Positions 5,911-28,405 are shown, counted from the stretch's first letter. The stretch: 33,531 nt of DNA from Candidatus Methylarchaceae archaeon HK02M2 (GCA_024256165.1 JAKLZG010000002.1:1-33531); one strand, 5' to 3'. Notes: a model not told the origin generated them from the sequence alone. Numbers and translations: made by a program.

Positions 5911-6345
5911 ATGCGCAAACCGCAGATGATAAATAAAATGGATGCGGAAAAACAAACTCAAAATAGTGAAAACCCAAAGCCTTATTTTGTAAAGTTTGAG
6001 ACTCCTAAGGAGCTAATTGATGCGACTTATGAAGTATTACGTCAAGCAAGGCAAACAGGAAAGATAAGAAAAGGAACAAATGAAGTTACAAAAGCGATTG
6101 AGAGAGGCATAGCGAAACTTGTGGTAATTAGCGAGGATGTCGAACCCCCTGAAATAGTTGCTCATCTACCTATACTTTGTGAAGAAAGAAAAGTGACATT
6201 TATCTTTGTTCCGAGTAAAGCCCAGATAGGTTCGGCTCTTGGAATCGATGTATCTGCTGCATCAGCATGCGTAATAGAGTCTGGAGAGGCAGCAAGTATT
6301 TTGGATCAGATCATCGATGCTGTTTCAAAGCTCAAGAAAAGTTAA
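5911..6345 (+). CDS. rpl7ae: Ribosomal protein L7Ae (eL8), kink-turn binding protein
   Basis: The 144-residue product contains the L7Ae core: a VKFETPKEL start, RKGTNEVTKAIERG (RNA kink-turn recognition) and LVVISEDVEPPEIVAHLP, then CEERKVTFIFVPSKAQIGSALG. L7Ae binds kink-turns in 23S rRNA and in archaeal box C/D and H/ACA guide RNPs and RNase P. The first 20 or so residues exceed the usual length, so M7 or M10 could be the true start. However, the TATA spacing supports the ATG at 5911 on a leaderless transcript. In many archaea this gene directly precedes S28e-L24e-Ndk; here that trio lies 13 kb away at 19517. Its stop overlaps the stop of the convergent flavin reductase-like gene by 4 nt. 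Confidence 0.93.
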   Translation: MRKPQMINKMDAEKQTQNSENPKPYFVKFETPKELIDATYEVLRQARQTGKIRKGTNEVTKAIERGIAKLVVISEDVEPPEIVAHLPILCEERKVTFIFVPSKAQIGSALGIDVSAASACVIESGEAASILDQIIDAVSKLKKS

Positions 6346-6896
6346 AAATGAAGATATTTATCTAAAATTAAATATTTTTTCTTGTGTCTTAAGATCATCT
6401 GTGCTTTATCTAGATCGTAATCCGTTTTGAAAATATCTTTTAAAGCTTCAGCGGCAACTACCTTTCCAACAAATATCATATGATCGCCTGTTTCAAGCTT
6501 TAAGACTAACTCACATTCTAAATGACCTATACATTCATTTATCAAAGGTGGCTTGACAATCTTAGCTGGCGAAGCTGTCAGACCTGATTTTTTAAACTTA
6601 TCTATGTCCTTTCCAGACACACTCCCTAAGTAGTCGATCTGTTTAGCAAGTTTTTTGGACGGTATATTGATTACAAACTCGCGAGTTTCTGTTATTAATT
6701 TATATGAGTATCTTTTCAGGGCCATACTTATAGCTATTAAAGGGGGATCGAATGATGTTGGCATCGTCCAAGCCATTGGGATTATATTAGGCTTTCCTGA
6801 ACTATCGATACACGTGATCAATACAACAGGTCTTGGGTACATCAACCTGGTACATATATCAAATTGAACATCAATTTTCTCATTGATTTGGTTCAA
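6342..6896 (-). CDS. Flavin reductase-like FMN-binding split-barrel protein
   Basis: The 184-residue protein has the features of the flavin reductase/flavoredoxin family (FMN-binding split barrel): MYPRPVVLITCIDSSGKPN near the N-terminus, MAWTMPTSFDPPLIAISM, and EFVINIPSKKLAKQIDYLGSVSG, followed by a GHLECELV strand. Such proteins bind FMN and act as NAD(P)H:flavin reductases or small electron carriers; the substrate cannot be read from sequence. The start at 6896 is TTG with no obvious ribosome-binding site, and there is no upstream ATG in frame. It is the last gene on the minus strand of the AT-rich block, 165 nt beyond the amidotransferase stop, so a role with that flavoenzyme system is possible but unproven. 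Confidence 0.8.
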   Translation of the reverse strand: MNQINEKIDVQFDICTRLMYPRPVVLITCIDSSGKPNIIPMAWTMPTSFDPPLIAISMALKRYSYKLITETREFVINIPSKKLAKQIDYLGSVSGKDIDKFKKSGLTASPAKIVKPPLINECIGHLECELVLKLETGDHMIFVGKVVAAEALKDIFKTDYDLDKAQMILRHKKKYLILDKYLHF

Positions 6897-7061: not shown

Positions 7062-9656
7062 TTAACCAACCTTCGAGAGAGCTTTTATTGGGATTGGTAC
7101 GACCTTTCTATAAATTTCATACATACTCTTTTTCTTTCCATTTACAGTCAATAATCGATCGACCGAAATCCCATACAACCTCTCGTTTTCTTTCAAATAA
7201 GGAAGAATTAGTTTACAATCTTCAAAGGTAAGTTGTACGATCTTTCCACTATTAAGTTGATCTTCTGTCACTAATTTATGAGGGTCTCTCAAGTATATCG
7301 CCCCTCCAGATGCTAACGAAAAAAGATTACCTCCAGGATATGGAGTTTCTTGTTCAATAATTTCGCCAAGATCGTTATATTGTATTCCATTCAAAATTAC
7401 AAAACCTCCACCTTTTAAAGGATCACCTGCCATGAAAGATTCAGCCAAGTAGTCAAGACAAGTACCGTTTATTATTACTCGTGGTTTACCGACTGCGTTT
7501 ATTAAAGGTCTTCCTGCCGCATTTCCGGATACATAAACTTCTCCACCTTTTGCCCCATACATGAATGTTTGACCTACATCTCCATAAATAACGAGTTTTC
7601 CTCTCCTTACTATTTGCCCGATTTGGTCTTGCGCATCACTGTGAATGTAAATTTTAGAACCATCTAAGCCTGAGCCTAGATAATCGCCAGGACTACCATA
7701 GACATCAATTCGTATATCCGATTTAGGTCCAAGACCGCAACCAATAAATCTTTGACCACGAAGACTGTATGCAATTACTTTTTTCCACCCAAGATTGTAC
7801 GCTTTAACTAGGAATTTAGATGCAGAATCTATCCCTTCTGGATTAAAATCTTCCATATTAATAATTAAAGTTCGATATGGATCTTGGGGGCTTTGTAAAA
7901 GATTTTTACTCTGCCAATCAATTAGTTGATAACTAGTACTCGTGCCAATTCGTTGAGTCGAACTGAAGATTTCATTAAGTTCTTCTTGAATTTGTGTTAA
8001 CATCAGACTCCTTCTTTTAATACCAATATTCCAGTGCCGATCCATGAGAATTGTCAATATTTCAATAGTGAACCTTTTTTCTTGATCTCCTTTTTTCGAA
8101 TATTTTCTTAAGATATCTATAAGGTTATCAAAATTATTGTTATCATAGATGTAAAGAAAATCCTTTAATCGATCATACATTTTTTGGGGTGTCTCAAATG
8201 CATTAGCAGATAATTTATGTTCAATCTCAAAAGGAGAAAAATATGTTAGATTAGATTGATCGTATATTTGCTTAGGATTTTTTATCGTTGTAACAACTTT
8301 CCCAAATTTATCTGTACATTTCAATTCTTTTTCTTTTTTATTTCCTTCACTTTCTGTTATTGTGAAAATGAAAGCCCCCCCATCGGTGTGGCTACCACCA
8401 CGTGCATTCCAATATTTATCAGCTATAGGAAGAAAATTCTTATCTTCTTCCGATAAACTTCTTAATATAGCGTCAATAGCTTGCTTTTCTGAGGATATAA
8501 CCCCAATTTTCACATCACCTTCCAGTAAAGCGAAAACTTGTGGTCTGAGCATTGAAGTATCGGTGATGCCAATCATTTGATGTTGTCTTTTATAGGGATC
8601 ATTTCTTGCTATTATAAAGAACCAAGGCCCATCTGGAGAACCAATCATATGGGATAACTGAATCATCTTATAGATTTTCCTTTTCTCCTCAGAAAGGATA
8701 TGAAAATCTCTTTCAGTTGTTGGTGCTAATGCTTCAATAATATATTCTAATGGATATCGATAAACTCGACTAAAGAGATCAAATAGCAATACCGAGACTT
8801 CTGTATCAGTTAGAAATTGGGGGTATATGTTCCTCTGCTTCAAATATTTTGTTACTCTTACATAGTTAGCGAAATCACCATTATGAACTAAAGCTTCATG
8901 AAGCCCAACAAAAGGATGTGCTCCTCCAGGGTGCCAAACTCTTCCCTTGGTCGGATATCTTTGATGTCCAATCCAGATATGTGCTTTTATATCTTCAAGG
9001 CGATAATACTTTATCAATTGTTCTGCATAGCCCACAATTTTTAACACCATCATGTTCTTTCCATGGGAAAGAACAAAAGCCCTCTTTTTTCCTAATGAAG
9101 CATAAAATTTTTGATTTAATTGAAAACTATTTTGATAGATAAATTCATCCTCTATTTGTTGGGGCTCCATTTCGTCAAGATTATTTTTTTTAATAAAACG
9201 ATTTAAAACATCTTCATCAACTTTGACAAAGTATCTAATCACATCAGGTGGTTTTATTTCCAAACCTGGAACTTGACTATAGTCATCTAAAGAAGGTATT
9301 TTTTCGGTATAATCCACTTGTAAGTTAGGAAAGATAAACGAATCTTCAACCAATTTTCTCGAAGAAGGATCAAGATAAGCAATTTGTAAAAGATAATCTT
9401 TTTCCAATATTGCCCTTGAAATACCCATTTGTTCAGGTAAAAATCCTACAGCTGCGATACCTCCTCCCTTCCCATTTCCTCTATTATGCATTTGTTTACA
9501 TGATTGAAGTAAATGGTGACCCGCAACTGGTATTGTACATGCCAATCCCACAACTCCACAACCTCCCTCTGATTCAGCTTTGGAATTTGAAATTTGTCTA
9601 TGTTCTAATTTTTCTCTAGATTTAATTATCTTTTCAACATAATCTATCTTTAATAT
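7062..9656 (-). CDS. Glutamate synthase-like class II amidotransferase fused to GXGXG domain
   Basis: The protein joins an N-terminal class II glutaminase to a GltB-type GXGXG beta-helix. Glutaminase features are GGCGVVG with the nucleophilic Cys (codon 9560-9558), HNRGNGKGGG, GHQRYPT, AHPF...HNGDFANY and TDTE. The C-terminal domain shows DVYGSPGDYLGSGL, IVRRGKLVIYGDVG, MYGAKGGEVYVSG and MAGDP. It would release ammonia from glutamine for the FMN subunit encoded just upstream. The first AUG/GUG/UUG in frame (GTG at 9551) lies after the catalytic Cys, so it cannot be the true start. The frame is open back to the TGA of the preceding gene. A GGAGGATGATC ribosome-binding site overlaps that TGA and is followed by AUA at 9656, the start used here. 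This gives 864 residues and a 32-residue propeptide, as expected for GltB-type enzymes. Alternatives are readthrough of the TGA or a sequence error. No GltB central domain is recognised between the two parts. Confidence 0.85.
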   Translation of the reverse strand: MLKIDYVEKIIKSREKLEHRQISNSKAESEGGCGVVGLACTIPVAGHHLLQSCKQMHNRGNGKGGGIAAVGFLPEQMGISRAILEKDYLLQIAYLDPSSRKLVEDSFIFPNLQVDYTEKIPSLDDYSQVPGLEIKPPDVIRYFVKVDEDVLNRFIKKNNLDEMEPQQIEDEFIYQNSFQLNQKFYASLGKKRAFVLSHGKNMMVLKIVGYAEQLIKYYRLEDIKAHIWIGHQRYPTKGRVWHPGGAHPFVGLHEALVHNGDFANYVRVTKYLKQRNIYPQFLTDTEVSVLLFDLFSRVYRYPLEYIIEALAPTTERDFHILSEEKRKIYKMIQLSHMIGSPDGPWFFIIARNDPYKRQHQMIGITDTSMLRPQVFALLEGDVKIGVISSEKQAIDAILRSLSEEDKNFLPIADKYWNARGGSHTDGGAFIFTITESEGNKKEKELKCTDKFGKVVTTIKNPKQIYDQSNLTYFSPFEIEHKLSANAFETPQKMYDRLKDFLYIYDNNNFDNLIDILRKYSKKGDQEKRFTIEILTILMDRHWNIGIKRRSLMLTQIQEELNEIFSSTQRIGTSTSYQLIDWQSKNLLQSPQDPYRTLIINMEDFNPEGIDSASKFLVKAYNLGWKKVIAYSLRGQRFIGCGLGPKSDIRIDVYGSPGDYLGSGLDGSKIYIHSDAQDQIGQIVRRGKLVIYGDVGQTFMYGAKGGEVYVSGNAAGRPLINAVGKPRVIINGTCLDYLAESFMAGDPLKGGGFVILNGIQYNDLGEIIEQETPYPGGNLFSLASGGAIYLRDPHKLVTEDQLNSGKIVQLTFEDCKLILPYLKENERLYGISVDRLLTVNGKKKSMYEIYRKVVPIPIKALSKVG

Positions 9657-9662
9657 CCCCGA

Positions 9663-11177
9663 TCATCCTCCAAATTTTAGTAGACCTTTACCTCCATATT
9701 TTTTGTATTTTTCTGACAAGCCAGCCCCTCTCAAATCTGCTACATCATCTAAACCTAGCCTCCAAAGAATGTCAATAAGTTGATTGTTCCATGAATAATA
9801 CAGATTACTTATCCTTTGAGCGCCCCAATTAGGTTGAACAAGTTCAACAAGTTCATGATCAGTTGAAGCTATCCCATATGGACATCCTCTTCCAGACTCA
9901 CAGTTTCCACATCTAGTGCAACCACAAGCTACCAATTCTGCTGTACCGATGATGACACCATCAGCTCCTAGAGCGATAGCTTTTGCAATGTCATAAGCGG
10001 TTCTAATACCACCACTTACCATGAAGGTGAGTTCATCTCTTACGCCTTCATCAACTAAAAATCGGTGTACTTTTTGGATTGCATATTCTATAGGCATTGC
10101 TATATTTTTTTTCGCAATATCTGGTGCAGCTCCAGTTCCACCATAGCTACCATCGACATTAAGAATGTTAACACCTGCGTGATAACATCCTACAGCTACC
10201 ATCTCTATATCAGTTGGACTGGAAACTTTCGCTGAAATTAAGATATCAGGATCAGGATTCATCGCAATAATCCAATCGACATGCTTTTTATGATCTTCAA
10301 CAGAATAAACACTATGAAAGGGAAATGGCGAGAAAAGGGTATGCCAAGGTACCGACTCTCTAAGGTTAGCGACATCGGGTGTGACTTTGTCAGCTAATAG
10401 ATGGCCACCTAAACCCGGCTTAGCTCCTTGAGCGTATTTGATTTCTACTATTCTTGCATAATTGATAGTCTCTTCTGTAACACCAAATTGCCCAGTCGCA
10501 AGTTGTGTAATAACATTATCCTTATATGGTACCAATTGTTCTGGATATCCTCCTTCTCCTGTGCTTACGAAAGTATTCCAAGCTTGCGCAGCCATAGCCC
10601 TTGCCAACATCATGTTGAGGCTTATTGAACCAAATGACATCCCTGCACTGTACCATGGAATTGGGATATTGATTCTTGCTCCATAAGATCTTTTATTCAG
10701 TGTTATTGAAGTTTTGATTTTTTCTTTATCTATTCTGTCCTTAAACTCTTTCTCGAATTTAAATCTCAAATTATCGAAACCCCCACCTGAATTCCCAATT
10801 CGATATTCGATATCTGAAGGAGGCTCACCTGTTTCTGCTTGATACCACGTTGCTAAAAGCAAGTCTCTAGTCCACATAGAATCTCCTAGGACCATATAAT
10901 CTGAATTTGATTCAATACAAATTGCATTGTATGGGCAAAGGGATACACAATAAAAGGGATTCTCTTTACATTTAGGCCCTATACAGTTGGAACTATTCGG
11001 TTGATGCATCTTAAGGTGTCCAGACAATCTCATATGAACTCCATAGGGGCAGATATTTTCACAAAGACTACAATCGATACACGCATCGGTATAAGATACT
11101 TTATACTTAGAAATACTCCAAAATTCAGATGGAGTTCGTTCCACTATAACATTTTTGGGCACCATCTTTATTATCAC
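9663..11177 (-). CDS. Glutamate synthase-like FMN subunit with ferredoxin domain (catalytic paralog)
   Basis: A 504-residue protein. Two 4Fe-4S motifs lie near the N-terminus (CIDCSLCENICP and CIGPKC...CVSLCP). They are followed by the FMN-binding TIM barrel of glutamate synthase: WYSAGMSFGSIS, STGEGGY, KPGLGGHL, the VDGSYGGTGAAP segment and VSGGIRTAYDIAKA. The 3Fe-4S-type cysteine cluster CGCTRCGNC...CPYGI is intact. It would reduce 2-iminoglutarate formed from 2-oxoglutarate and glutamine-derived ammonia. The GTG start at 11177 overlaps the upstream TGA; the ATG at 11165 with a GGTGAT site seven bases before it is at least as likely. The next gene begins in the same frame right after its TGA. 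N-methylglutamate synthase or another amidotransferase-coupled flavoenzyme is an alternative function. Confidence 0.88.
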   Translation of the reverse strand: MIIKMVPKNVIVERTPSEFWSISKYKVSYTDACIDCSLCENICPYGVHMRLSGHLKMHQPNSSNCIGPKCKENPFYCVSLCPYNAICIESNSDYMVLGDSMWTRDLLLATWYQAETGEPPSDIEYRIGNSGGGFDNLRFKFEKEFKDRIDKEKIKTSITLNKRSYGARINIPIPWYSAGMSFGSISLNMMLARAMAAQAWNTFVSTGEGGYPEQLVPYKDNVITQLATGQFGVTEETINYARIVEIKYAQGAKPGLGGHLLADKVTPDVANLRESVPWHTLFSPFPFHSVYSVEDHKKHVDWIIAMNPDPDILISAKVSSPTDIEMVAVGCYHAGVNILNVDGSYGGTGAAPDIAKKNIAMPIEYAIQKVHRFLVDEGVRDELTFMVSGGIRTAYDIAKAIALGADGVIIGTAELVACGCTRCGNCESGRGCPYGIASTDHELVELVQPNWGAQRISNLYYSWNNQLIDILWRLGLDDVADLRGAGLSEKYKKYGGKGLLKFGG

Positions 11178-12517
11178 CCAACTAAAGAACGGAGTTCTTT
11201 TTCTTCATCAATGTAAAAGATAATCCTACCAGTCTCTCCCTGAAGCCGTCTAACCTCTCTCATTCCCATCGCACCAAGTACTTCTAGAAGTTGATCTCTC
11301 CATGAACTCATCAAATTTATTATTCTTTGAGTTCCCCAATCAAAATCCACATTTGCTAGATCTATTGGAGAGAAGCTCTGAATTGGAGTTCCGAATTGTA
11401 CCATTTCCAAGGCTATAAGATATGCAAAATCAATTCCTACAATATTCGCTCCACAAGCTATTGTTTTCGGAAGATGTTCAGCAGCGGCAATACCACCACT
11501 TGCAATTATTGTGATCTGATCACGAAGACAATTATCAACTAACAAATCATCGATCGATATTAAGGAATTTGTAATAAACCGTGGATTTTTCTCAAACTCA
11601 TTTCCTTGATAATCAGTATAAAGATGTAATATTTCAGCTCCTTTTTTTACAAGATCTAGGATCAATGTATCAGAACTCTTTTTTAATGGGACCCGTATTG
11701 AGACTATGACATTGGAATTTAGATTCTTCAAAGTCTTCAAATCTTTTATAATATCCTCTTTATAATCCACTTCAATTATTTTAGATCTTTTCACCAACTC
11801 TATATCAAGATTGGAGTGTGAAGAGATTCTCGGAATTAAATTATAATCGAATTCTTGGTAATCATCCGCATTGACGATAGCATATGTCCCAAGTTTTGTA
11901 GCAGCATTGGCCACTATCCATTGAAGAAATCTATTTTTAAATTCATCAGGAGGAGGGTTAAATAGAACAGGTATAGGAATTTCAATATTTTGTGGAAATC
12001 CATCCAAATCTTTTTTCGTTTTAAATTTTAAGTAAGGAAGTTTTCGCCCAAGATCAACCGCTGTAGAGATATATTCTCTCCCATGAATTCCATCACGGGT
12101 CGGTCTTACAATCTCTGACATATCAGTCCATATACTATCAAATCCTGGTCCACTAAAGTCCCCTCTATATCCTGCACCAGATACTGGAACTCTTCCATCC
12201 TCAGCTTCATTCCATATTGTTTTGATTATCTTTGGAGTATAATAAGAGTCACCTAGTTTGAGGAGTTTTGGATTATCATGTAAAGTAAGAGCTCTACGGG
12301 GACATTCTACAATACAACGAAAACATCCCTTACAATTATAGCTATCAGGTTCTGCCATTATTCTTATATCTTCTTGTTGTTTTTTATGAACATCGTATAA
12401 ACAGGCTCTGATACAATCGCCACAGTTTATACAATAGTCAAGATTTCTTTTTACTAAAAATTTTCCTATCTTTTTCTTTGATTTCGCAAATTCAGTATGG
12501 ATTTGATATTTATACAA
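11174..12517 (-). CDS. Degenerate paralog of the glutamate synthase FMN subunit, with ferredoxin domain
   Basis: A 447-residue protein similar to its downstream neighbour along its length. Two 4Fe-4S motifs remain (CINCGDCIRAC and CKGCFRCIVECP), followed by a reduced TIM barrel ending IIASGGIAAAEHLPKT and a shared tail (DWGTQRI...SSWRDQLLEV). The cysteine-rich 3Fe-4S loop of the paralog is replaced by a shorter stretch without cysteines, and the glycine-rich FMN/substrate loops are largely lost. It probably serves as an electron-transfer or structural subunit and not as a second catalyst (inference). The TTG start at 12517 is preceded by AAAGGAGG, 18 nt after the stop of the FAD/Fe-S gene, and its stop overlaps the next gene by 4 nt. 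The operon linkage is strong. Confidence 0.75.
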   Translation of the reverse strand: MYKYQIHTEFAKSKKKIGKFLVKRNLDYCINCGDCIRACLYDVHKKQQEDIRIMAEPDSYNCKGCFRCIVECPRRALTLHDNPKLLKLGDSYYTPKIIKTIWNEAEDGRVPVSGAGYRGDFSGPGFDSIWTDMSEIVRPTRDGIHGREYISTAVDLGRKLPYLKFKTKKDLDGFPQNIEIPIPVLFNPPPDEFKNRFLQWIVANAATKLGTYAIVNADDYQEFDYNLIPRISSHSNLDIELVKRSKIIEVDYKEDIIKDLKTLKNLNSNVIVSIRVPLKKSSDTLILDLVKKGAEILHLYTDYQGNEFEKNPRFITNSLISIDDLLVDNCLRDQITIIASGGIAAAEHLPKTIACGANIVGIDFAYLIALEMVQFGTPIQSFSPIDLANVDFDWGTQRIINLMSSWRDQLLEVLGAMGMREVRRLQGETGRIIFYIDEEKELRSLVG

Positions 12518-12534
12518 GCTTGTTTTTTCCTCCT

Positions 12535-13803
12535 TTATTTACAAACGATACCTCTCTTCTTCAATTCTTGATACTTCTTATTCTCTTCTGCATCTTCTAC
12601 AAATCTTGCTACAACTTCGGTTGGTCTTCCAAACTTCTTTTCTAAATGTCTTTCCCATAAATCCCAAATATTCATGAGCTCCAATTGAGTTTGACATACT
12701 TTCTCACAAGCTTTACAATGTGTACACAAAAACATTTTTTCAGAATTTAATTTTGTGAAAACATTCTTACTCATGTACTCTTTTATAAAAAATAATTTCC
12801 CCCTAGCTGTAACGCTCTCATCTCCACTTACAATATATGCAGGGCACACTGGGACGCAAGAGCCACATTTCGCACATTCTAAAATCGTTTTCTCTATAAT
12901 ACTGTGGGGTTTATTATCTTGAAAACTATGCTTTTGTAAAAAAGCTGAGATTTTTCCAAAGACAGGTGAAAATGATCTCAGAATTTTTAGTGTGATTTTG
13001 GTTGCTGGATTCAAAAATTCTGATGGAAAATCTAAATATTGTGATTTTAATGAAAAAAACTTACCTGGGTTACCTAAATTAAGCGGGTCTTCCTCTCCCT
13101 TATACCTTTTTAATTTGATAAATGTGTCTCGTCTGAATTTTTTTTCTACAAATGGTGTCATCCATGCTCCAACATTATATATTCTGCCTTTCAACTCAAG
13201 TCCTAATTCAAAAAGCATCATCACTAATACGAGATGTGTGAAATACCCTAATGTATTTTTTTGATTTGAAAGAAATGAAGAAATAATTAAAGCTTCTTTT
13301 TTATTCACAATATGACTCTCCGTCGATATTTCGATTCCACAACTTTTCCCAAGTTTGCATGCTTTTTTAATAAATTCGTGTAGTTTGGATATTGGTAATA
13401 TAAGTTCGCTAGCCAGAAGTGTAGGGCCAAACCTTTTTATACTCATAGTGAAGAATCGCTCGTTCCAGAGTTTATAGGCAAGATGATTTTCACTTTGATA
13501 TGGTTCCTCTTCAATGCATTTGAGGAGTGCTTTTTCAGACCCTAGATCTTCGAGATGAATCAATACACTATCTTTCTCCTTAAAAAAACAGTTTACGTTA
13601 GGATAGCCTTCTTTAAGTAATCTGTTTAATTGTCTCATATGGTAACTATTGTAATGCGTTATATGTGATGCATCTATTTCGTTATCGATCAATTCTTCAA
13701 TAAATTGATAGGATTTAGTGCTATCATCAAATTGAAATAAACGTGGAATTGAAATGCTTGGACGTTTCCTTATTTTCAATTTCACGTTTAAAATAATTCC
13801 CAT
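12535..13803 (-). CDS. FAD/Fe-S oxidase, C-terminal segment (after in-frame TAA)
   Basis: Together with 13846-14376 this forms one GlcD/GlcF-like gene. The 422 residues begin in the end of the FAD-binding domain (GIILNVKLKIR, equivalent to the GT-LGIITE region of D-lactate/glycolate dehydrogenases). They continue through the FAD-linked oxidase C-terminal domain and end with two CxxCxxCxxxC motifs (CAKCGSCVPVCP and CTHCKACEKVCQ) that bind 4Fe-4S clusters. The likely role is to oxidise an organic acid or other donor and pass electrons to the glutamate synthase-like subunits, replacing a GltD-type NAD(P)H subunit; the donor is unknown. The ATG at 13803 has no ribosome-binding site and lies inside a domain, so independent translation of this part is doubtful. 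Confidence 0.7.
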   Translation of the reverse strand: MGIILNVKLKIRKRPSISIPRLFQFDDSTKSYQFIEELIDNEIDASHITHYNSYHMRQLNRLLKEGYPNVNCFFKEKDSVLIHLEDLGSEKALLKCIEEEPYQSENHLAYKLWNERFFTMSIKRFGPTLLASELILPISKLHEFIKKACKLGKSCGIEISTESHIVNKKEALIISSFLSNQKNTLGYFTHLVLVMMLFELGLELKGRIYNVGAWMTPFVEKKFRRDTFIKLKRYKGEEDPLNLGNPGKFFSLKSQYLDFPSEFLNPATKITLKILRSFSPVFGKISAFLQKHSFQDNKPHSIIEKTILECAKCGSCVPVCPAYIVSGDESVTARGKLFFIKEYMSKNVFTKLNSEKMFLCTHCKACEKVCQTQLELMNIWDLWERHLEKKFGRPTEVVARFVEDAEENKKYQELKKRGIVCK

Positions 13804-13845
13804 CTGCCCATTAGTTCCAAAATAATAAGCAAATTCTGGCTCAAT

Positions 13846-13848
13846 TTA
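13846..13848 (-). pseudogene. In-frame TAA interrupting the FAD-binding domain
   Basis: Fourteen codons separate this TAA from the next ATG (13803), all in one frame. The codons on both sides read as continuous domain sequence (...QVKILK, stop, IEPEFAYYFGTNGQMG...). A single change AAA to TAA would explain it. UAA is not a known recoding signal in archaea. Confidence 0.7.
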
Positions 13849-14376
13849 TTTTAAAATTTTGACTTGCCCATTATAAGAAACAACTCTTAAACTATTTACT
13901 TGATCTTTAATTTGACCATACTTGTAACTATTAATACCATAACCACCAGTAGAAATCCAACCTCCAACTGTTGAAAACCAACTTGATGGATAGGTTCTAA
14001 CAGCATACCCTTTAGGTTTAAGAAAATACTCAAGGTCATCCCATCTTACTCCGGTCTCAATAGTAACTGTATTGTCAAGCTCATTCATACTTTGTATAGT
14101 TCTTAAGTTAGAAAGATCTAAGATCATTCCTCCTTTCATAGGTAATATATCACCAAATGCTGAAGACGCAGCTCCTCTTGGAATAATTGGCATCTTCTTC
14201 CCATGGGCTTCTTTTACTATTAATACAACATCTTCAGTATTTTTAGGTTGGATAACAACTTCAGGTGTTTTGGAAAATAGACTTTTAATTATTAAGGGAA
14301 TTTCAGTTTGATCTTGACTGTAAAGGATTCTTTCTAGTTCCCCTTTTAGAGATTTCACATTAGTAAAATCATTCAT
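13846..14376 (-). CDS. FAD/Fe-S oxidase, N-terminal FAD-binding segment (ends at in-frame TAA)
   Basis: The 176 residues form the first part of a FAD_binding_4 (PCMH/VAO-type) domain: PEVVIQPKNTEDVVLIVKEA, PIIPRGAASSAFGD, MILDLSNL, VTIETGVRWDDLE and VGGWISTGGYGINSYKYGQI. It stops at a TAA just before the end of that domain, and the same frame continues without shift into the rest of the protein. The ATG at 14376 is preceded by an AAGGTAAT site and AT-rich promoter-like sequence. Either the gene was recently inactivated, or it is a base error, or the two pieces act as a split protein. Homologous flavoproteins carry one uninterrupted domain here. Confidence 0.7.
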   Translation of the reverse strand: MNDFTNVKSLKGELERILYSQDQTEIPLIIKSLFSKTPEVVIQPKNTEDVVLIVKEAHGKKMPIIPRGAASSAFGDILPMKGGMILDLSNLRTIQSMNELDNTVTIETGVRWDDLEYFLKPKGYAVRTYPSSWFSTVGGWISTGGYGINSYKYGQIKDQVNSLRVVSYNGQVKILK

Positions 14377-14513: not shown

Positions 14514-14759
14514 CTAGGTTATCTCATATAAGGGATACAAAGAGTAAGTAACATATGATATACTCTTTGGAGGTAGATAACGATGGATTAAACCTTTTTC
14601 TTCCATATTTTCTAAAATTTCAAGAGGCTCTTTAATTGCAGTATGTAATGAGATATAACCTAAAGGAACTGGACTTTTTGCAGTATCTAAGACTTTGAGG
14701 ATTTTATAAACTAGTTCATTTTCTCTATTTCTTGGTATATCTAAATTTATACTTAATAT
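14514..14759 (-). CDS. Small winged-helix-like putative DNA-binding protein with no AUG/GUG/UUG start
   Basis: An open frame of about 81 codons ends at TAG (14516-14514). Its middle reads like a winged-helix domain: a VYKILKVLDTAKSPVPLGYIS helix region followed by LEILENMEEKGLIHRYLPP. No ATG, GTG or TTG occurs before the conserved part. A GGGGAGGGG stretch (14776-14768) is followed 8-9 nt later by AUA at 14759, used here as the start. It is the first gene of the minus-strand block, upstream of the FAD oxidase, and diverges from the ribbon-helix-helix gene. It may regulate the operon, but no function can be assigned, and a pseudogene whose start has been lost is an alternative. Confidence 0.45.
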   Translation of the reverse strand: MLSINLDIPRNRENELVYKILKVLDTAKSPVPLGYISLHTAIKEPLEILENMEEKGLIHRYLPPKSISYVTYSLYPLYEIT

Positions 14760-14779
14760 TTTCTTATCCCCTCCCCGTA

Positions 14780-14843
14780 CTATTTTTTAAATATAGAAAT
14801 ATTTATAAATCTTATGTCTTTTATAAAAATATAAAGTGATAAA
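14780..14843. promoter_or_regulatory. Divergent promoter region between the glt-like block and the RHH/GvpD-like pair
   Basis: This strongly AT-rich stretch separates a minus-strand and a plus-strand gene, with TATA-like patches for both directions (atatttataaat near 14799-14810, ttttataaaaatata near 14818-14832). A GTGAT site at 14836-14840 precedes the ATG at 14844. It is a natural site for regulation by either small DNA-binding protein encoded beside it (inference). Confidence 0.45.
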
Positions 14844-15027: not shown

Positions 15028-16335
15028 TTGACTCGCTTTCTAAGAATATCGGAAGAACTAAAATATTTCCTTAAAATAGGACATACTTTGCTTATTAAAG
15101 GTGACGCTGGGACAGGTAAAACTACCCTCGCATTAGAAATACTGCGATGCCTTGATCCGGTTGATTGTATTTTTTTCTCTACGAAAACTCCGCCACCTAT
15201 TCTTTACGATTATTATCCTTGGCTGAAGAATAAATTAGTGCTAGGCCCTGAGGAAATAAGATTTTTAGAAACACGTCAGGAAAGCCCTGAACGTCTTTTA
15301 AACCGACTTAGAGATCAATTACTGAAGATGGAACACCCTTTACTCATACTTGACACTTGGAATGCTATGTCCTCAGAAATGGATCCTAAAGATCAAATAA
15401 GAATTGCAAAAGCGATTATTATGACAACTTATCTTATAAAAGGCAAAACGATATTAATAGAAGAGACAGATAAAAGATCTTTTCTTGACTTTTTAGTAGA
15501 TGGTGTTGTTATTCTGACGGCTACAGACGTTTATGGTGAAGCTGAAGCTGGACGTGTTTATGAAGATCGCCTCGAAAAACGATTTGCCAGGGAGATGGAA
15601 CTTAAAAAGTTGAGAGGAATTGAAATTTTAAATAGAAGATATGCTTTCACCTTGAAAGATGGGAGGTTTCTGTCCTTTCCTCCATTTTATGAAGATTTAT
15701 CTGTTAGACCAACAAAGATTGCAAATCTTTCTGAAGATCGAATTTCATCAGGCATCTTTGAATTTGATAATATAACAGGAGGTTTCAAAAAGGGAAGTTT
15801 TAATTTATTCGAGATTGAACATAGCGTTGATAAAAGATATTTACAAATACATACACAAATTGCTTGGAATATTATATTGAATAATGGAGGGATACTCATA
15901 ATTCCTTCAATAGGTGAAAAATACCCTTCTGAATTGTTACATGAAGCTATTCTACATCGACCTCGGTCAAATAATTCTGAAAGCGAAATAAAGATCATTC
16001 GAGAGATTGTAGAAAAAAACTATAATACTAAACATTTTAAGAATGGAATATTTATTTTCCTTGGTTTTGATACACTTATAAATCGATTTGGGTCTGACAA
16101 AACACTCGCATTAGTTGAATCTATTATTAATTATGCTGAAGAAAGTGGAACCATCATCATCGGAACTATGAAAAGAGGTATGGAATTCTTAGAATATGTA
16201 ACGCATACAATGGAATCTCATTTCGTATTTAAAGACCTTACTAATGCTCTAGTCATTTATGGAATGAGACCTAAAACAGGTCTTTACGCAGTGAATTTAA
16301 TTGAAAATGAAGTCAAACTCACACCTATCGTTTAG
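15028..16335 (+). CDS. GvpD/KaiC-like P-loop ATPase
   Basis: The 435-residue RecA-superfamily protein has Walker A GDAGTGKTT at about 25-33 and a Walker B-like HPLLILDTWNAM near 110-120. The early part (TLLIKGDAGTGKTTLALEIL, CIFFSTKTPPPILYDYYPW) resembles the P-loop domain of gas-vesicle regulator GvpD and archaeal KaiC-like ATPases. The second half (GIFEFDNITGGFKKGSFNLFEIE, then GGILIIPSIGEKYP) looks like a second RecA-like domain without a P-loop. No gas-vesicle structural gene is nearby, so a signalling or regulatory role is more likely. The TTG start at 15028 has a GGGGTGAT site five bases upstream. It is preceded by the small RHH gene and converges on glutamine synthetase. Confidence 0.65.
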   Translation: MTRFLRISEELKYFLKIGHTLLIKGDAGTGKTTLALEILRCLDPVDCIFFSTKTPPPILYDYYPWLKNKLVLGPEEIRFLETRQESPERLLNRLRDQLLKMEHPLLILDTWNAMSSEMDPKDQIRIAKAIIMTTYLIKGKTILIEETDKRSFLDFLVDGVVILTATDVYGEAEAGRVYEDRLEKRFAREMELKKLRGIEILNRRYAFTLKDGRFLSFPPFYEDLSVRPTKIANLSEDRISSGIFEFDNITGGFKKGSFNLFEIEHSVDKRYLQIHTQIAWNIILNNGGILIIPSIGEKYPSELLHEAILHRPRSNNSESEIKIIREIVEKNYNTKHFKNGIFIFLGFDTLINRFGSDKTLALVESIINYAEESGTIIIGTMKRGMEFLEYVTHTMESHFVFKDLTNALVIYGMRPKTGLYAVNLIENEVKLTPIV

Positions 16336-16382: not shown

Positions 16383-17705
16383 TTAAAGTATGTGGAGATA
16401 TTGTTTTAATTCCCATTCAGTTACTTGTATTCTATATTCATCCCACTGTCTTTTTTGCGCTTCAATAAGCTTATTATAAATATGCTCTCCTAGAGCATCT
16501 TGTAAGATTTTGTCTTTTTCTATTTCTATTATCGCTTCTCCTAGTGATCCTGGTAGAGTCTCTATATATAGCTCCTCAAGTTTTTTATCATCAAAATGGT
16601 ATACATCTTCTTCGACAGGTTCAGGAGGAACCATTTTATTCTTTATACCGTCTAGACCACTTGCTAGCATTACTGTAAAGGCTAAGTAAGGATTACAAGA
16701 AGGATCAGGGCATCTTAGTTCGACTCTTGTTGAAGAATCTTTTCCTTTCCGTGTATTTGGAACTCTTATCAGTGCTGATCTGTTAACTCTCCCCCAACAG
16801 ATGTAAACTGGTGCTTCATATCCTGGAACAAGCCTTTTATACGAATTTACGGTTGGAGCTATTACTGCTGACATACTTCGTACATGTGCTAACTGCCCTG
16901 CGATAAATTGTTTTGCAGTTTCAGATAAATTCCCTATTCCTTTAGGATCATAGAAATCGTTTTTATCATCTTTCCATAGGCTTTGATGCACGTGCATACC
17001 AGAGCCGTTTATTCCGAAAATAGGTTTTGGCATAAAACTTGCAAATAAATTGTACTTCATAGCCACTGTTTTTACAGCAGCTTTGTATGTCGTAACACGA
17101 TCTGCTACAGTTAATGCCTTATCGTATTCAAAATCTATTTCATGCTGTCCTGGAGCAACCTCATGGTGGCTCATTTCAATTTTTATTTGCATAGCTTCCA
17201 AATCGGATACAACTTCTCGCCTAAGATCTGAAGCAAGATCTCTGGTTGAAAAATCAAAGTAACCAGCTGTATCGTGAGGTTCAGGCCTCTGGCCAGTAGC
17301 ATTATTCTTAAATATGAAAAACTCAAGTTCTGGTCCTACTTTGTAATTGAAATTCATTTTAGAAGCCGTTCTCAACATCCTTTTGAGAATGAACCGTGGA
17401 TCGCCTGGAAAAGGTTTACCTTCACTGAGGTAAACATCACACATTATTCTAGCAATTTTCCCATCTGTCCATGGCAATATCGCATAAGTTTCTATTTCGG
17501 GCATAAGGAACATATCGCTTTCGAAGATCCTAACAAAACCCTCTATAGAAGAGCCGTCGAACCATAAACCTTCTTCTAATACATTAGGTAGTCTTTTTGC
17601 AGTTATCGCACATGTCTTGAGTTGCCCCATTATATCTACGAACTGTAGATCAATATATTTCACATTCTTCTTTTTTATTTCAGAAATTACACTTTCTTTG
17701 TCCAA
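16383..17705 (-). CDS. glnA: Glutamine synthetase, type I
   Basis: The 440-residue enzyme makes glutamine from glutamate, ammonia and ATP as a cytosolic dodecamer. Visible motifs are FDGSSIEGF (beta-grasp), GPELEFFIF (metal site), HHEVAPGQHEIDF, GINGSGMHVHQSLW (ATP/metal site) and the RVELRCPDPSCNPYLAF segment. The length suits the GSI-alpha subtype found in archaea. The TTG start at 17705 is 34 nt downstream of a TATA-like AGTATATATATG and has no Shine-Dalgarno, suggesting a near-leaderless mRNA. It lies upstream of, and on the same strand as, the glutamate synthase-like block but is separated from it by the opposite-strand GvpD-like gene, so it is a separate transcript of the same pathway. 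Confidence 0.96.
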   Translation of the reverse strand: MDKESVISEIKKKNVKYIDLQFVDIMGQLKTCAITAKRLPNVLEEGLWFDGSSIEGFVRIFESDMFLMPEIETYAILPWTDGKIARIMCDVYLSEGKPFPGDPRFILKRMLRTASKMNFNYKVGPELEFFIFKNNATGQRPEPHDTAGYFDFSTRDLASDLRREVVSDLEAMQIKIEMSHHEVAPGQHEIDFEYDKALTVADRVTTYKAAVKTVAMKYNLFASFMPKPIFGINGSGMHVHQSLWKDDKNDFYDPKGIGNLSETAKQFIAGQLAHVRSMSAVIAPTVNSYKRLVPGYEAPVYICWGRVNRSALIRVPNTRKGKDSSTRVELRCPDPSCNPYLAFTVMLASGLDGIKNKMVPPEPVEEDVYHFDDKKLEELYIETLPGSLGEAIIEIEKDKILQDALGEHIYNKLIEAQKRQWDEYRIQVTEWELKQYLHIL

Positions 17706-17788: not shown

Positions 17789-19339
17789 TCATTCCCACTC
17801 TATTGTTGCAGGTGGCTTATGTGTAATATCATATACAACTCTAGTTATCTGCGGTATTTCATTCGTTATTCTTGTTGATATTTTTTCTAAAATATCATAA
17901 GGAATTTTTGCGAAACTAGCTGTCATGGCCTCCTTACTTTCAACAGCCCTTATGACAATCGCGTATCCATAAGCCCTTGCATCGCCTTTAACTCCTGTGC
18001 TCTTGGTATTTGTCAAAACAGCGAAATATTGCCATAAGCCTTCATTAATACCAGATTTCTCTAGCTCCTGAGCTACTATATCATCTGCTTTTTTGACTAT
18101 ACCTATTTTTTCTTCCGTAACTTCACCAACAACTCTAACCGCTAAACCAGGACCAGGAAATGGTTGTCTCCAAACAATCTCTCTAGGCAGATCTAATTTT
18201 TCTGCAACTTTTCTTACCTCATCTTTGTAAAGGTCCTTTAATGGTTCTAGGATTGTTTTAAATTTAATTTTAATCGGTAAGCCAGCGACGTTGTGATGAG
18301 TCTTTATCTTATCTGAGTCTCTCCTTACTCCTGATTCAACTCTATCTGGGTAAATCGTTCCTTGTAAAAGGTATTCTGCTCCAACCTCACTTGCTATTTT
18401 CTCGAAAACCCTTATGAACTCTTTTCCGATAATCTTCCTTTTTTGTTCAGGATCTACTACTCCTCTAATTTTTTTCATAAATCTTTTCTTTGCATCAACA
18501 ATTACTAAGTTCATACCGAATTTTTTAAAAGTCTTCCTTACGAATTCTGTTTCAGATTTACGCATAAAACCATGATCTATAAAAACTGCTGTTAAATTCC
18601 TTCCAATAACCTTTGAAGCCAAGGCAGCTGTTGTACTTGAATCAATCCCTCCACTCAGAGCCACGATGCACTTATTATTTTTAAATAACTTTATCTCATC
18701 TATTGCTTTCTCAATAAAACTTTCTGGAATCCAGTTGGGTATACAAGCACAAACCTTAAAGATGAAATTTTTTATCATTAGAGTTCCATTCTTTGTATGG
18801 ACGACTTCGGGATGCCACTGTAAACCGAATATGGGTTTTTCCCTATGCTTAAAGGCAGCAATTGGACAGTTTTTTGAATGTGATAAGACTTCGTACTCTT
18901 TAGGTAGTTCATATACAAAATCGCTATGACTCATCCATACAATCTCTTTTTTACTCAAACCCTGAAGCACATCAACTGGTTTATCTATTTCAACATGCGT
19001 CAAACCGTATTCTTCAGCCCCTGGCTGAACTTTTCCATTATTCAAATAGGCTATTAATTGGTGTCCGTAACATAATCCTAAGATGGGCACACCTGTGTCA
19101 AATATCTTCGAGTCGAATTTTGGAGTATTTCTATCATACACGCTTGAGGGCCCACCGGATAAGATGATTCCTTTAATATTGAGTTTTTTATTAAGTAATT
19201 TTATTTCCCTTGGAGATATATCACATGGGAATACCTCTGAGTAGACCTTATTTTCCCTAACCCTCTTTCCTATAAGGTGGCTGTATTGACCACCAAAATC
19301 AAGGATAAGGATCGTATCAGGTTTTATAAGCTTTCCCAT
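17789..19339 (-). CDS. guaA: GMP synthase (glutamine-hydrolysing), fused amidotransferase and synthetase
   Basis: The 516-residue protein converts XMP, ATP and glutamine to GMP. The N-terminal class I amidotransferase has LDFGGQYSHLIGKRVRE, Cys90 in GLCYGHQL, and His176/Glu178 in LQWHPEVVH. The synthetase part has the PP-loop ALSGGIDSS at about 227-235. The dimerisation domain has PGPGLAVRVVGEVTEE and ends THKPPATIEWE. Many archaea encode these two functions as separate subunits; here they form one bacterial-style polypeptide. The ATG at 19339 is well defined by alignment to the family N-terminus. The gene is divergent from S28e across a shared promoter region. Confidence 0.96.
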   Translation of the reverse strand: MGKLIKPDTILILDFGGQYSHLIGKRVRENKVYSEVFPCDISPREIKLLNKKLNIKGIILSGGPSSVYDRNTPKFDSKIFDTGVPILGLCYGHQLIAYLNNGKVQPGAEEYGLTHVEIDKPVDVLQGLSKKEIVWMSHSDFVYELPKEYEVLSHSKNCPIAAFKHREKPIFGLQWHPEVVHTKNGTLMIKNFIFKVCACIPNWIPESFIEKAIDEIKLFKNNKCIVALSGGIDSSTTAALASKVIGRNLTAVFIDHGFMRKSETEFVRKTFKKFGMNLVIVDAKKRFMKKIRGVVDPEQKRKIIGKEFIRVFEKIASEVGAEYLLQGTIYPDRVESGVRRDSDKIKTHHNVAGLPIKIKFKTILEPLKDLYKDEVRKVAEKLDLPREIVWRQPFPGPGLAVRVVGEVTEEKIGIVKKADDIVAQELEKSGINEGLWQYFAVLTNTKSTGVKGDARAYGYAIVIRAVESKEAMTASFAKIPYDILEKISTRITNEIPQITRVVYDITHKPPATIEWE

Positions 19340-20437: not shown

Positions 20438-21979
20438 ATGAACTTCATAAAGGAGACTAAAAGCATCTGCCCTGAATGCAACAAGGTTCTCCCAGCCACG
20501 ATATTTGAGAGAAATGGCAAGGTTTGGATAGAAAAGAAATGTCAAGATCATGGAAGGATAGAGGAGTTATACTGGGGATCTTACGAAATGTATCAAAATG
20601 CCAGTAGATATAATATTAAAGGAAAAGGAGTCAGCAATCCCATCATACAAAAAGATGTTGTAAATTGTCCCTCTGATTGTGGTCTATGTAAAGAGCATTT
20701 AACCCACACAACTTTAGCAAATATAGTTGTTACTAATAGATGTGATTTGGCCTGCTGGTACTGCTTTTTCTATGCAAAAAAAGCAGGGTATATCTATGAA
20801 CCTAGCTTAGATCAAATAAGAGAGATGGCGAAAAATCTAAGGAATCAGAAGCCAGTGCCTGGTAACGCTGTGCAATTGACAGGAGGTGAACCATGCCTTA
20901 GAGATGACCTGATAGAGATCATAAAGATAATAAAAGAGGAGGATATAGATCATGTTCAAGTAAATACAGATGGGATAAGGCTTGCAACTGATCCTATATT
21001 AGCCCGAAAAATCAAGGAGGCTGGCACAAACACAATCTATCTTAGTTTCGATGGTTTAACTCCAAATACCAACCCTAAGAACCATTGGGAAATATCCACA
21101 ATTTTAGATAATTGTAGAAATGCAGATCTCGGGATAGTCTTCGTTCCAACCATTATTAAAGGTGTGAACGACCATGAAGTTGGAGGTATAGTCAAGTATG
21201 CATCAAAGAATATAGATGTGGTTCGAGGTGTCAACTTTCAGCCCGTATCTCTCACTGGCAGACTGACTAAAGCTGAGCGAGATAAGTATAGAATAACTAT
21301 TCCAGATGTAGTACAAAGAATAGAGGAGCAGACCGATGGAGAGATAGCTAAGAATGATTTTTATCCAGTACCATGCACAGACCCTGTAAGCAAATTTGTG
21401 GAAGCTTTAACAGGAAGGTCCCATTATGAGCTTTCTGTTCATTTTGTGTGTGGTGCTGCCACTTATGTCTTCAGAGAAGAAGATAAGTTGATTCCCTTGA
21501 CCAGATTTATAGATATAGATGGTTTTTTTAAATACTTATCAGAAAAAGCAGATGAGATAAATAAGGGCAAAAATAGATATTGGGTAGCTATAAAGGCACT
21601 ATCAAAGCTCAATAAGTTCGTGGATAAAGAGAAGCAACCCAAAGGACTGAACCTATCAAAAATAATATTCAATGCTCTTTGGAAGCATAATTATAAAGCG
21701 TTGGGCGTGTTCCATCATAAAGCACTTTTTATAGGGATGATGCATTTTCAAGACAAGTATAACTACGATATCCAGAGAGTGGTTAGGTGTGGCATACATT
21801 ATCTAGTTCCAGACGGTAGAATAATTCCATTTTGTGCTTTCAATGTTATCCCAGAATGGTATAGAGATAAAATCCAGAGAGAGTTTGGAATTTCTATTGA
21901 AGAATGGGAAAAGAGAACTGGAAGAAAGATCAAGGATGACCGTTACATCAGGAAAAAGCCAGAAATTATCGCGAAATGA
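20438..21979 (+). CDS. tes: Radical SAM protein, tetraether synthase (Tes/MJ0619)-like
   Basis: The 513-residue protein has the radical SAM cluster motif C102-x3-C106-x2-C109 (RCDLACWYC), the SAM-binding LTGGEP and the NTDG segment. An N-terminal CPEC...CQDHGR zinc-ribbon-like part (C11, C14, C35) and an extra C77/C81/C84 set are typical of the Tes family. Tes joins two archaeol tails by C-C coupling to make macrocyclic or tetraether GDGT lipids at the membrane. The ending GIHYLVPDGRIIPFCAFNVIPEWYRDK also fits this group. A related lipid radical SAM enzyme of the same family cannot be excluded. The ATG at 20438 is preceded by GAGATGAG; a TATA-like atttaaaag lies near 20381. Confidence 0.8.
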   Translation: MNFIKETKSICPECNKVLPATIFERNGKVWIEKKCQDHGRIEELYWGSYEMYQNASRYNIKGKGVSNPIIQKDVVNCPSDCGLCKEHLTHTTLANIVVTNRCDLACWYCFFYAKKAGYIYEPSLDQIREMAKNLRNQKPVPGNAVQLTGGEPCLRDDLIEIIKIIKEEDIDHVQVNTDGIRLATDPILARKIKEAGTNTIYLSFDGLTPNTNPKNHWEISTILDNCRNADLGIVFVPTIIKGVNDHEVGGIVKYASKNIDVVRGVNFQPVSLTGRLTKAERDKYRITIPDVVQRIEEQTDGEIAKNDFYPVPCTDPVSKFVEALTGRSHYELSVHFVCGAATYVFREEDKLIPLTRFIDIDGFFKYLSEKADEINKGKNRYWVAIKALSKLNKFVDKEKQPKGLNLSKIIFNALWKHNYKALGVFHHKALFIGMMHFQDKYNYDIQRVVRCGIHYLVPDGRIIPFCAFNVIPEWYRDKIQREFGISIEEWEKRTGRKIKDDRYIRKKPEIIAK

Positions 21980-22010
21980 ATTAAGAATTAAGAATAATCG
22001 GAATTTCTAG

Positions 22011-22098
22011 AGCCGGGGGCAGGATTCGAACCTGCATAAAGCAGGTTTCTACACATGAACTACTGCAGCCTGCCGCCTAACCACTCGGCCACCCCGGC
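22011..22098 (-). tRNA. tRNA-Cys (anticodon GCA) with a 16-nt intron
   Basis: On the minus strand the acceptor stem GCCGGGG pairs with CCCCGGC. The D stem is GCC/GGC with loop GAGTGGTTA; the anticodon stem is GCAGG/CCTGC; the T arm is GCAGG-TTCGAAT-CCTGC. The anticodon loop is 23 nt, starting CTGCAG, so the anticodon is GCA (plus positions 22064-22066). Removing 16 nt at the canonical 37/38 site leaves a 7-nt loop CTGCAGA and a 72-nt class I tRNA. The discriminator base is U73, a tRNA-Cys identity element. CCA is not encoded. The gene lies between the Tes-like gene and SepRS, on the opposite strand. Confidence 0.92.
22047..22062 (-). other. tRNA-Cys intron (archaeal bulge-helix-bulge type)
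   Basis: Sixteen nucleotides between positions 37 and 38. The central helix can form between C32-U33-G34-C35 and GUAG of the intron (one G-U pair). It leaves bulges A36-G37/U and A-A/A38, with cuts after the second nucleotide of each bulge, as the archaeal splicing endonuclease requires. The inner helix is poor, so it is a relaxed form of the motif. Confidence 0.75.
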
Positions 22099-22303
22099 AT
22101 TTACTCGTTAGATTTCAGCGTAAGATAACAGCGCTATAAACTTTATGTGGTATAATGTCTATATGTTATCGATAAATCAAGGATCGAGGTTGTAATTCAT
22201 CTTGGGCAATTTGCTGATTTGAAATAATTTATCATCTTTGTTTTTTTTAAATAGGACCTTTAAAAGTAGATAATTAAATGGTTAAGTTGATCATATAAAG
22301 GAA

Positions 22304-28399: not shown

Positions 28400-28405
28400 T
28401 TTTCA

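Follow-up and report, generated by a model that had tools for sequence, protein, structure and literature searches.

A minus-strand block of four genes in the genome of Candidatus Methylarchaceae archaeon HK02M2 holds up, from its sequence motifs, as encoding a predicted glutamate-synthase-type enzyme. The block occupies positions 7062-14376 of a 33,531-nucleotide stretch (GCA_024256165.1 JAKLZG010000002.1:1-33531), and we refer to that whole stretch as the window. We think it somewhat probable that the enzyme is an archaeal glutamate synthase variant, belonging to a distinct clade, in which swappable flavoprotein electron inputs replace GltD. Glutamate synthase holds a central place in nitrogen assimilation, and two electron inputs are known for it, NAD(P)H via GltD, or ferredoxin. 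What is new here is that the core stays constant and its putative flavoprotein partners change between lineages; if this is true, the changing partner would constitute a third type of electron input and would tie nitrogen assimilation to the electron-transfer flavoprotein (ETF) and GlcD electron world of anaerobes. A literature search, with coverage that left out most subscription journals, found no paper describing such an enzyme.

The glutamate-synthase-type core

In order of transcription, the block comprises a gene for a flavin adenine dinucleotide (FAD) and Fe-S protein (14376-12535), two genes for barrel proteins that resemble flavin mononucleotide (FMN) domains, here called FMN1 and FMN2, and a glutaminase-GXGXG gene that begins near 9656 (Table 1). 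A preliminary description of this DNA was right on coordinates and strand and on how the genes are ordered and closely packed, and its domain calls hold as well: FAD_binding_4, FAD-oxidase_C and paired Fer4 motifs in the first protein, Fer4 with Glu_synthase in each of the next two, and GATase_6 with GXGXG in one protein. Its view that these genes encode a split and reordered amidotransferase or flavoenzyme of glutamate synthase type, lacking GltD, is supported by the motifs of FMN2, the glutaminase and GXGXG. FMN2 matches the FMN domain of the solved glutamate synthase (GltS) alpha subunits 1ea0, 2vdc and 7mfm with E values of about 2e-44; it contains the SFGSIS, TGEGG, KxAQGAKPG and GGTGAAP motifs, and three [3Fe-4S] cysteines (GCTRCGNC...GC) that align with those of GltS, and it deviates in having SPFPFHSVYSVED in place of the SPPPHHDIYSIED of GltS.

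For comparison within the genus we used HK01M (locus L004) and H03B2 (L005), which are cytochrome b-containing methyl-reducing methanogens of Ca. Methylarchaeales, class Nitrososphaeria, phylum Thermoproteota (PMC9478090); the main text of that paper makes no mention of glutamate. An automatic grouping places the window genome in the same genus. The glutaminase catalytic blocks lie at positions 31 (GGCGVVG), 230 (GHQRYPT), 258 (HNGD) and 283 (TDTE) of the H03B2 protein and recur in the window frame, and the GXGXG beta-helix domain is present. In a Pfam search, no protein of the window operon matched Glu_syn_central, the central domain of GltS.

The earlier call of two ferredoxin-FMN barrel proteins stands for FMN2, which keeps its motifs, but to label FMN1 an FMN enzyme is unwarranted, since none of the TGEGG, AQGAKPG and GGTGA motifs occurs in it and its members in the window genus are without the [3Fe-4S] cysteines as well. 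FMN1 and FMN2 are paralogues (hhalign 5.4e-58), and FMN1 is devoid of the 2-oxoglutarate/FMN catalytic motifs; most of its members have two [4Fe-4S] motifs, and a WxDxSEIVRPTRDG-x2-GRE-x-IST block is almost unchanged in 13 sequences. FMN1 also has a weak relationship (hhalign 98%) to the second barrel, matching the GltS central domain PF04898, in archaeal glutamate synthases with two barrels, FMN2 being the closer relative. Its structure model is of moderate quality (predicted local distance difference test score, pLDDT, 72) and gave fold-level matches only. When fused and single barrels were aligned together, one alignment placed every FMN1 row against the FMN2 half, and folding was done without it.

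The absence of GltD was confirmed genome-wide. PF14691 gives only weak matches inside proteins of about 800 residues, and the one Pyr_redox protein of about 480 residues that was checked is dihydrolipoyl dehydrogenase, which led us to reject a GltD hidden elsewhere in the genome. Nor does gltD accompany the block in relatives, a co-occurrence that the preliminary description had named as fatal to its proposal: a search for the GltD-like Fer4_20 domain (PF14691) in 17 genomes, including this one, yielded no co-occurring gltD beyond one 199-residue match, in G457 only.

With the bacterial NADPH-dependent GltB/GltD (Azospirillum, 1ea0/6s6s) the block shares a glutaminase, an FMN barrel with [3Fe-4S] cysteines, GXGXG and a propeptide-like leader before the nucleophile Cys, but it is split over three genes, fuses glutaminase to GXGXG, has no recognisable Glu_syn_central, carries an extra barrel (FMN1) and ferredoxin domains on its barrels, and lacks GltD. 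The ferredoxin-dependent GltS of Synechocystis (1ofd) has the same synthase motifs, likewise does without GltD, and resembles the block in that the latter could take electrons from ferredoxin; unlike the block, 1ofd is a single chain with neither built-in [4Fe-4S] domains nor a partner flavoprotein. Sets of three genes for an archaeal glutamate synthase (for example L055-L058 and L061) also encode separate proteins, among them a Fer4-FMN barrel, but they have one barrel, unfused glutaminase and GXGXG, the standard SPAPHHDIYSIED motif and a clade of their own. In one of them (G009, L055:6698-11892), a polyferredoxin and a PadH-like NADH oxidoreductase precede the three genes, a possible further electron input.

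A conserved core with changing neighbors

With FMN1 as a specific probe (E<1e-80), and sampling confined to the phylum Thermoproteota, the core was found in 27 genomes including the window genome: four Ca. Methylarchaceae, eight from families f29, f49, f50, f73 and f84, 14 from f79 and one from f87. The order FMN1, FMN2, glutaminase/GXGXG is constant across families wherever it could be read, and such conservation across the phylum indicates that the block is not a chance arrangement. The genes themselves vary in their joints, glutaminase and GXGXG being two open reading frames (ORFs) in L109 and FMN1 and FMN2 forming one fused 969-residue protein in L054. In a tree of FMN2, the block constitutes one clade (support 100/100, branch 1.92), and the loci with ETF genes come together with support of 83/100.

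The genes that flank this core differ among lineages. The FAD gene adjoins it in all four Methylarchaceae loci (in H03B2 as a contig-end fragment) and stands beside it in no other locus with a readable upstream side. In f29, f73 and f84, etfB and etfA follow the core in five of five readable loci (L109, L111, L112, L113 and, in broken form, L117), and ten f79/f87 loci have the core with neither FAD nor etf genes adjacent. Which flavoprotein partners the core is thus characteristic of the lineage, and the FAD gene is predicted to encode a lineage-specific input and no obligate subunit of the family. The preliminary description had proposed a search of other archaeal genomes for all four genes in the same order and had made its proposal depend on the FAD gene being present at most homologous loci; the three-gene core does keep its order, but most loci do without the FAD gene, which, where the upstream side can be read, is limited to the four of Methylarchaceae.

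Two further observations concern individual lineages. In the f79 loci L187-L195, FMN2 has no ferredoxin domain in those loci that were aligned, and the block often has LAGLIDADG or MFS genes as neighbors. In a sister genus (g3), the same locus is occupied by another set resembling glutamate synthase or N-methylglutamate synthase (L067:2335-7272, L063:7453-12137), made up of a 535-residue barrel, a glutaminase of 281-295 residues and a GXGXG-FMN protein of 711 residues; in L067 this set is divergent from the same KaiC-like gene and lies beside the same 53-residue and 83-88-residue genes. Homology of the 535-residue barrel to FMN1 was not detectable (hhalign 0.8%). The replacement of one GltS-like set by a different one at a single locus suggests that the two may share a function.

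A proposed reaction and its competitors

In the glutamate synthase that we favor, the glutaminase domain would free ammonia from glutamine, and the barrel of FMN2 would receive this ammonia, aminate a 2-oxoacid with it (probably 2-oxoglutarate) and reduce the product to glutamate, with GXGXG and FMN1 serving in structure and electron wiring. Electrons would enter through a separate, lineage-dependent flavoprotein, the GlcD-like FAD/2x[4Fe-4S] protein in Ca. Methylarchaceae and EtfAB in another clade, and the [4Fe-4S] motifs of the FAD subunit, FMN1 and FMN2 would form the wire to [3Fe-4S] and FMN. Complex formation, electron path and substrate are all points that we infer. In favor of the scheme, glutamine synthetase is encoded near the block, and the core contains the only Glu_synthase barrels of the genome apart from one weak match. 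Several observations weigh against it. FMN2 sits on a long branch (1.92) and has SPFPFHSVYSVED against the SPPPHHDIYSIED of GltS, so its substrate could differ; the window genome also encodes glutamate dehydrogenase, so the cell need not depend on this enzyme; no flavoprotein gene adjoins the core at most loci, those of f79 and f87, so ferredoxin may supply it with electrons directly; and the window copy contains a nonsense codon and lacks a normal glutaminase start.

This last point makes it possible, if doubtful, that the operon is decaying and non-functional in the window species, which would be compatible with any of the other readings. The FAD/Fe-S gene is not the single unbroken ORF that had been described: two ORFs, 13846-14376 and 12535-13803, share one frame and are split by a TAA at 13846-13848, and intact orthologues encode 632 residues in HK01M (L004:5140-7038) and 690 in the more distant L054. 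The called glutaminase ORF (829 residues; 866-902 in intact relatives) opens at GTG 9551, past the nucleophile Cys (TGT 9560-9558, in GGCGVVG). Upstream of it, 37 codons are open and look like a leader in comparison with relatives, and they contain no ATG, GTG or TTG, hence none ahead of that Cys. The ATG codons of HK01M and H03B2 align with ATA in the window (9656 or 9647), and because of this codon comparison a GGGG frameshift at the glutaminase start was dropped as an explanation. The small frame at the head of the locus (14514-14786) likewise has no ATG, GTG or TTG start in the window. Related loci also show lesions. FMN2 of HK01M has a TGA (L004:8502-8504) exactly at a ferredoxin-motif Cys codon that is TGC in H03B2, which may be a nonsense mutation, a consensus error or, remotely, selenocysteine; and in G708 (L117:6208-14233) the block and its etf genes lie in many broken frames, other genes of the contig look intact, and the whole looks like a pseudo-operon. 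Against decay, the family is conserved as a whole, and the ratio of nonsynonymous to synonymous substitution rates (dN/dS) between the window and HK01M or H03B2 lies between 0.10 and 0.21 for those operon genes that were compared over their full length; in the FAD gene it is 0.13 downstream of the TAA and 0.35 in the short stretch upstream. Values this low imply that selection acted until very recently, so that any decay is very recent, or that the lesions are consensus errors of a metagenome-assembled genome. The window copy may be damaged or mis-assembled.

An enzyme that is simply ferredoxin-dependent, its core reduced directly via the Fer4 domains and the FAD or ETF proteins being accessory or unrelated, is unlikely on balance. 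In its favor, FMN1 and FMN2 have [4Fe-4S] motifs of their own, the ten f79/f87 loci mentioned above do without FAD and ETF genes, and reduced ferredoxin is expected in such methanogens. What speaks against it is that f79 FMN2, which has no partner gene, has lost its Fer4 domain too, and that adjacency is so regular, four of four for FAD in one clade and five of five for etfBA in another.

Lower still do we rate the chance that the block encodes some other amidotransferase-linked flavoenzyme, for example one that resembles N-methylglutamate synthase or acts on a different 2-oxoacid. Its separate, divergent clade and the altered motif beside the substrate pocket would fit such an activity, and glutamate dehydrogenase offers the cell another source of glutamate. 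However, the FMN2 motif is closer to that of GltS than is the SPARHLDIVGPED form of the sister-genus set, and the genome has no other GltS; its Glu_synthase barrels are those of the core plus one weak 26-bit match in an FMN_dh-family protein at 428-1486.

The bolder version of our favored scheme, a new GltS class powered by exchangeable flavoproteins (EtfAB or a GlcD-like FAD/Fe-S protein) in place of GltD or ferredoxin, of which at least the G721-type (L109) version couples glutamate synthesis to ferredoxin reduction by bifurcation, is improbable. EtfB and EtfA of L109 are nearest to bifurcating ETFs (CarDE, LctBC, EtfABCX; E 1e-46 to 1e-100), with human ETF further away. At the b-FAD motif, which is DGDTAQVGP in bifurcating EtfB (PMC9232219), L109 has DGNTGQVGP and L111-L113 have DGGTAQVGP. 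Loss of one Arg that EtfA has at its bifurcating FAD (R205 of LctC) abolishes bifurcation; this Arg is retained in L109 (QIRPAFGG) and is Val in L111-L113 (QIVPA). One lineage could thus be capable of bifurcation, the others are unlikely to be, and with Val in three of four loci we rejected a bifurcating ETF as a general feature. The window genome's own ETF is unsupported as a partner: it adjoins a ferredoxin gene and a histidine operon, a FixC-like protein is encoded elsewhere, and it is FixABCX-like in appearance.

Least probable is the source of electrons proposed in the preliminary description, in which the FAD subunit would oxidize a 2-hydroxy acid (lactate, glycolate or 2-hydroxyglutarate) and feed glutamate synthesis; we rejected it because the catalytic residues are missing. 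The family assignment behind it is sound, as the subunit has the fold of the GlcD/D-lactate dehydrogenase/AGPS family by sequence and by a structure model of moderate quality (pLDDT 64; fold-level matches only). The lactate site of Ldh-EtfAB, however, requires His377, His384, Glu422 and His423 of LctD (PMC9232219), and the metal-ligand and catalytic His motifs (H-x-GDGN-x-H, GEHG) are missing from all orthologues of the subunit (window, L004, L054), leaving an organic-acid donor unsupported. They are retained in LctD-like proteins of related archaea that lie beside other etfBA pairs (L151, L152, L154, L155), the four GlcD proteins that were aligned; L148 was left out of the alignment. The C-terminal CCG domains of GlcD-GlcF type fusions are likewise absent from the 632- and 690-residue FAD proteins, in which the Pfam scan ends with Fer4; the homologue in L131 is longer, at 903 residues. 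Ldh-EtfAB (LctBCD) and other EtfAB-coupled flavoenzymes resemble our loci in the etfBA partner genes of one clade and in the GlcD-like FAD fold of the Methylarchaceae subunit, but differ in that here an FMN enzyme of amidotransferase type is the partner, lactate-site residues are missing from the FAD subunit and EtfA has Val in L111-L113. Clusters of etfB, etfA and glcD like LctBCD occur in several Thermoproteota (L148, L151, L152, L154, L155).

Surroundings of the block

Table 1. Genes of the block and its neighbors, in window coordinates.
Feature	Position	Strand	Evidence or remark
FAD/Fe-S subunit, N-terminal part, PCMH-type FAD_binding_4	13846..14376	-	PF01565 1.8e-35; closed by the in-frame TAA 13846-13848
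FAD/Fe-S subunit, C-terminal part, FAD-oxidase_C and two [4Fe-4S] motifs	12535..13803	-	PF02913, PF13183
FMN1, two [4Fe-4S] motifs and degenerate Glu_synthase-type barrel	11174..12517	-	Pfam, motif alignment
FMN2, ferredoxin domain and catalytic glutamate-synthase FMN barrel, [3Fe-4S] cysteines	9663..11177	-	PF01645 2.4e-88
Class II glutaminase fused to GXGXG	7062..9656	-	PF01493 5.9e-14, PF13522
Small open frame, homologue of 83-88-residue protein	14514..14786	-	tblastn 3.6e-17
KaiC-like ATPase, divergent from operon	15028..16335	+	syntenic marker common with sister genus
Glutamine synthetase type I	16383..17705	-	TIGR00653 2.2e-167
GMP synthase (guaA)	17789..19339	-	NF000848 9e-209
Flavin reductase-like protein, downstream of block	6342..6896	-	PF01613 5.1e-36

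The flavin reductase-like gene is not conserved with the block, being missing at the same position in L004 and L005, and in both L004 and L067 the locus opens with the homologue of the small frame. GMP synthase adjoins the block also in L004, L005 and L111-L113. Between the window and L004 or L005, the synonymous sites of guaA are saturated (proportion of synonymous differences, pS, 0.80) and those of the neighboring operon have pS of 0.44-0.53, hinting that the histories of guaA and the operon may differ. The genes further along the window (20438-23803 and 24741-29947) fit a methanogen genome: they encode a radical SAM protein that has an HMPTM zinc ribbon, a tRNA synthetase resembling SepRS, and three antiporter-like subunits of Mrp/Fpo type.

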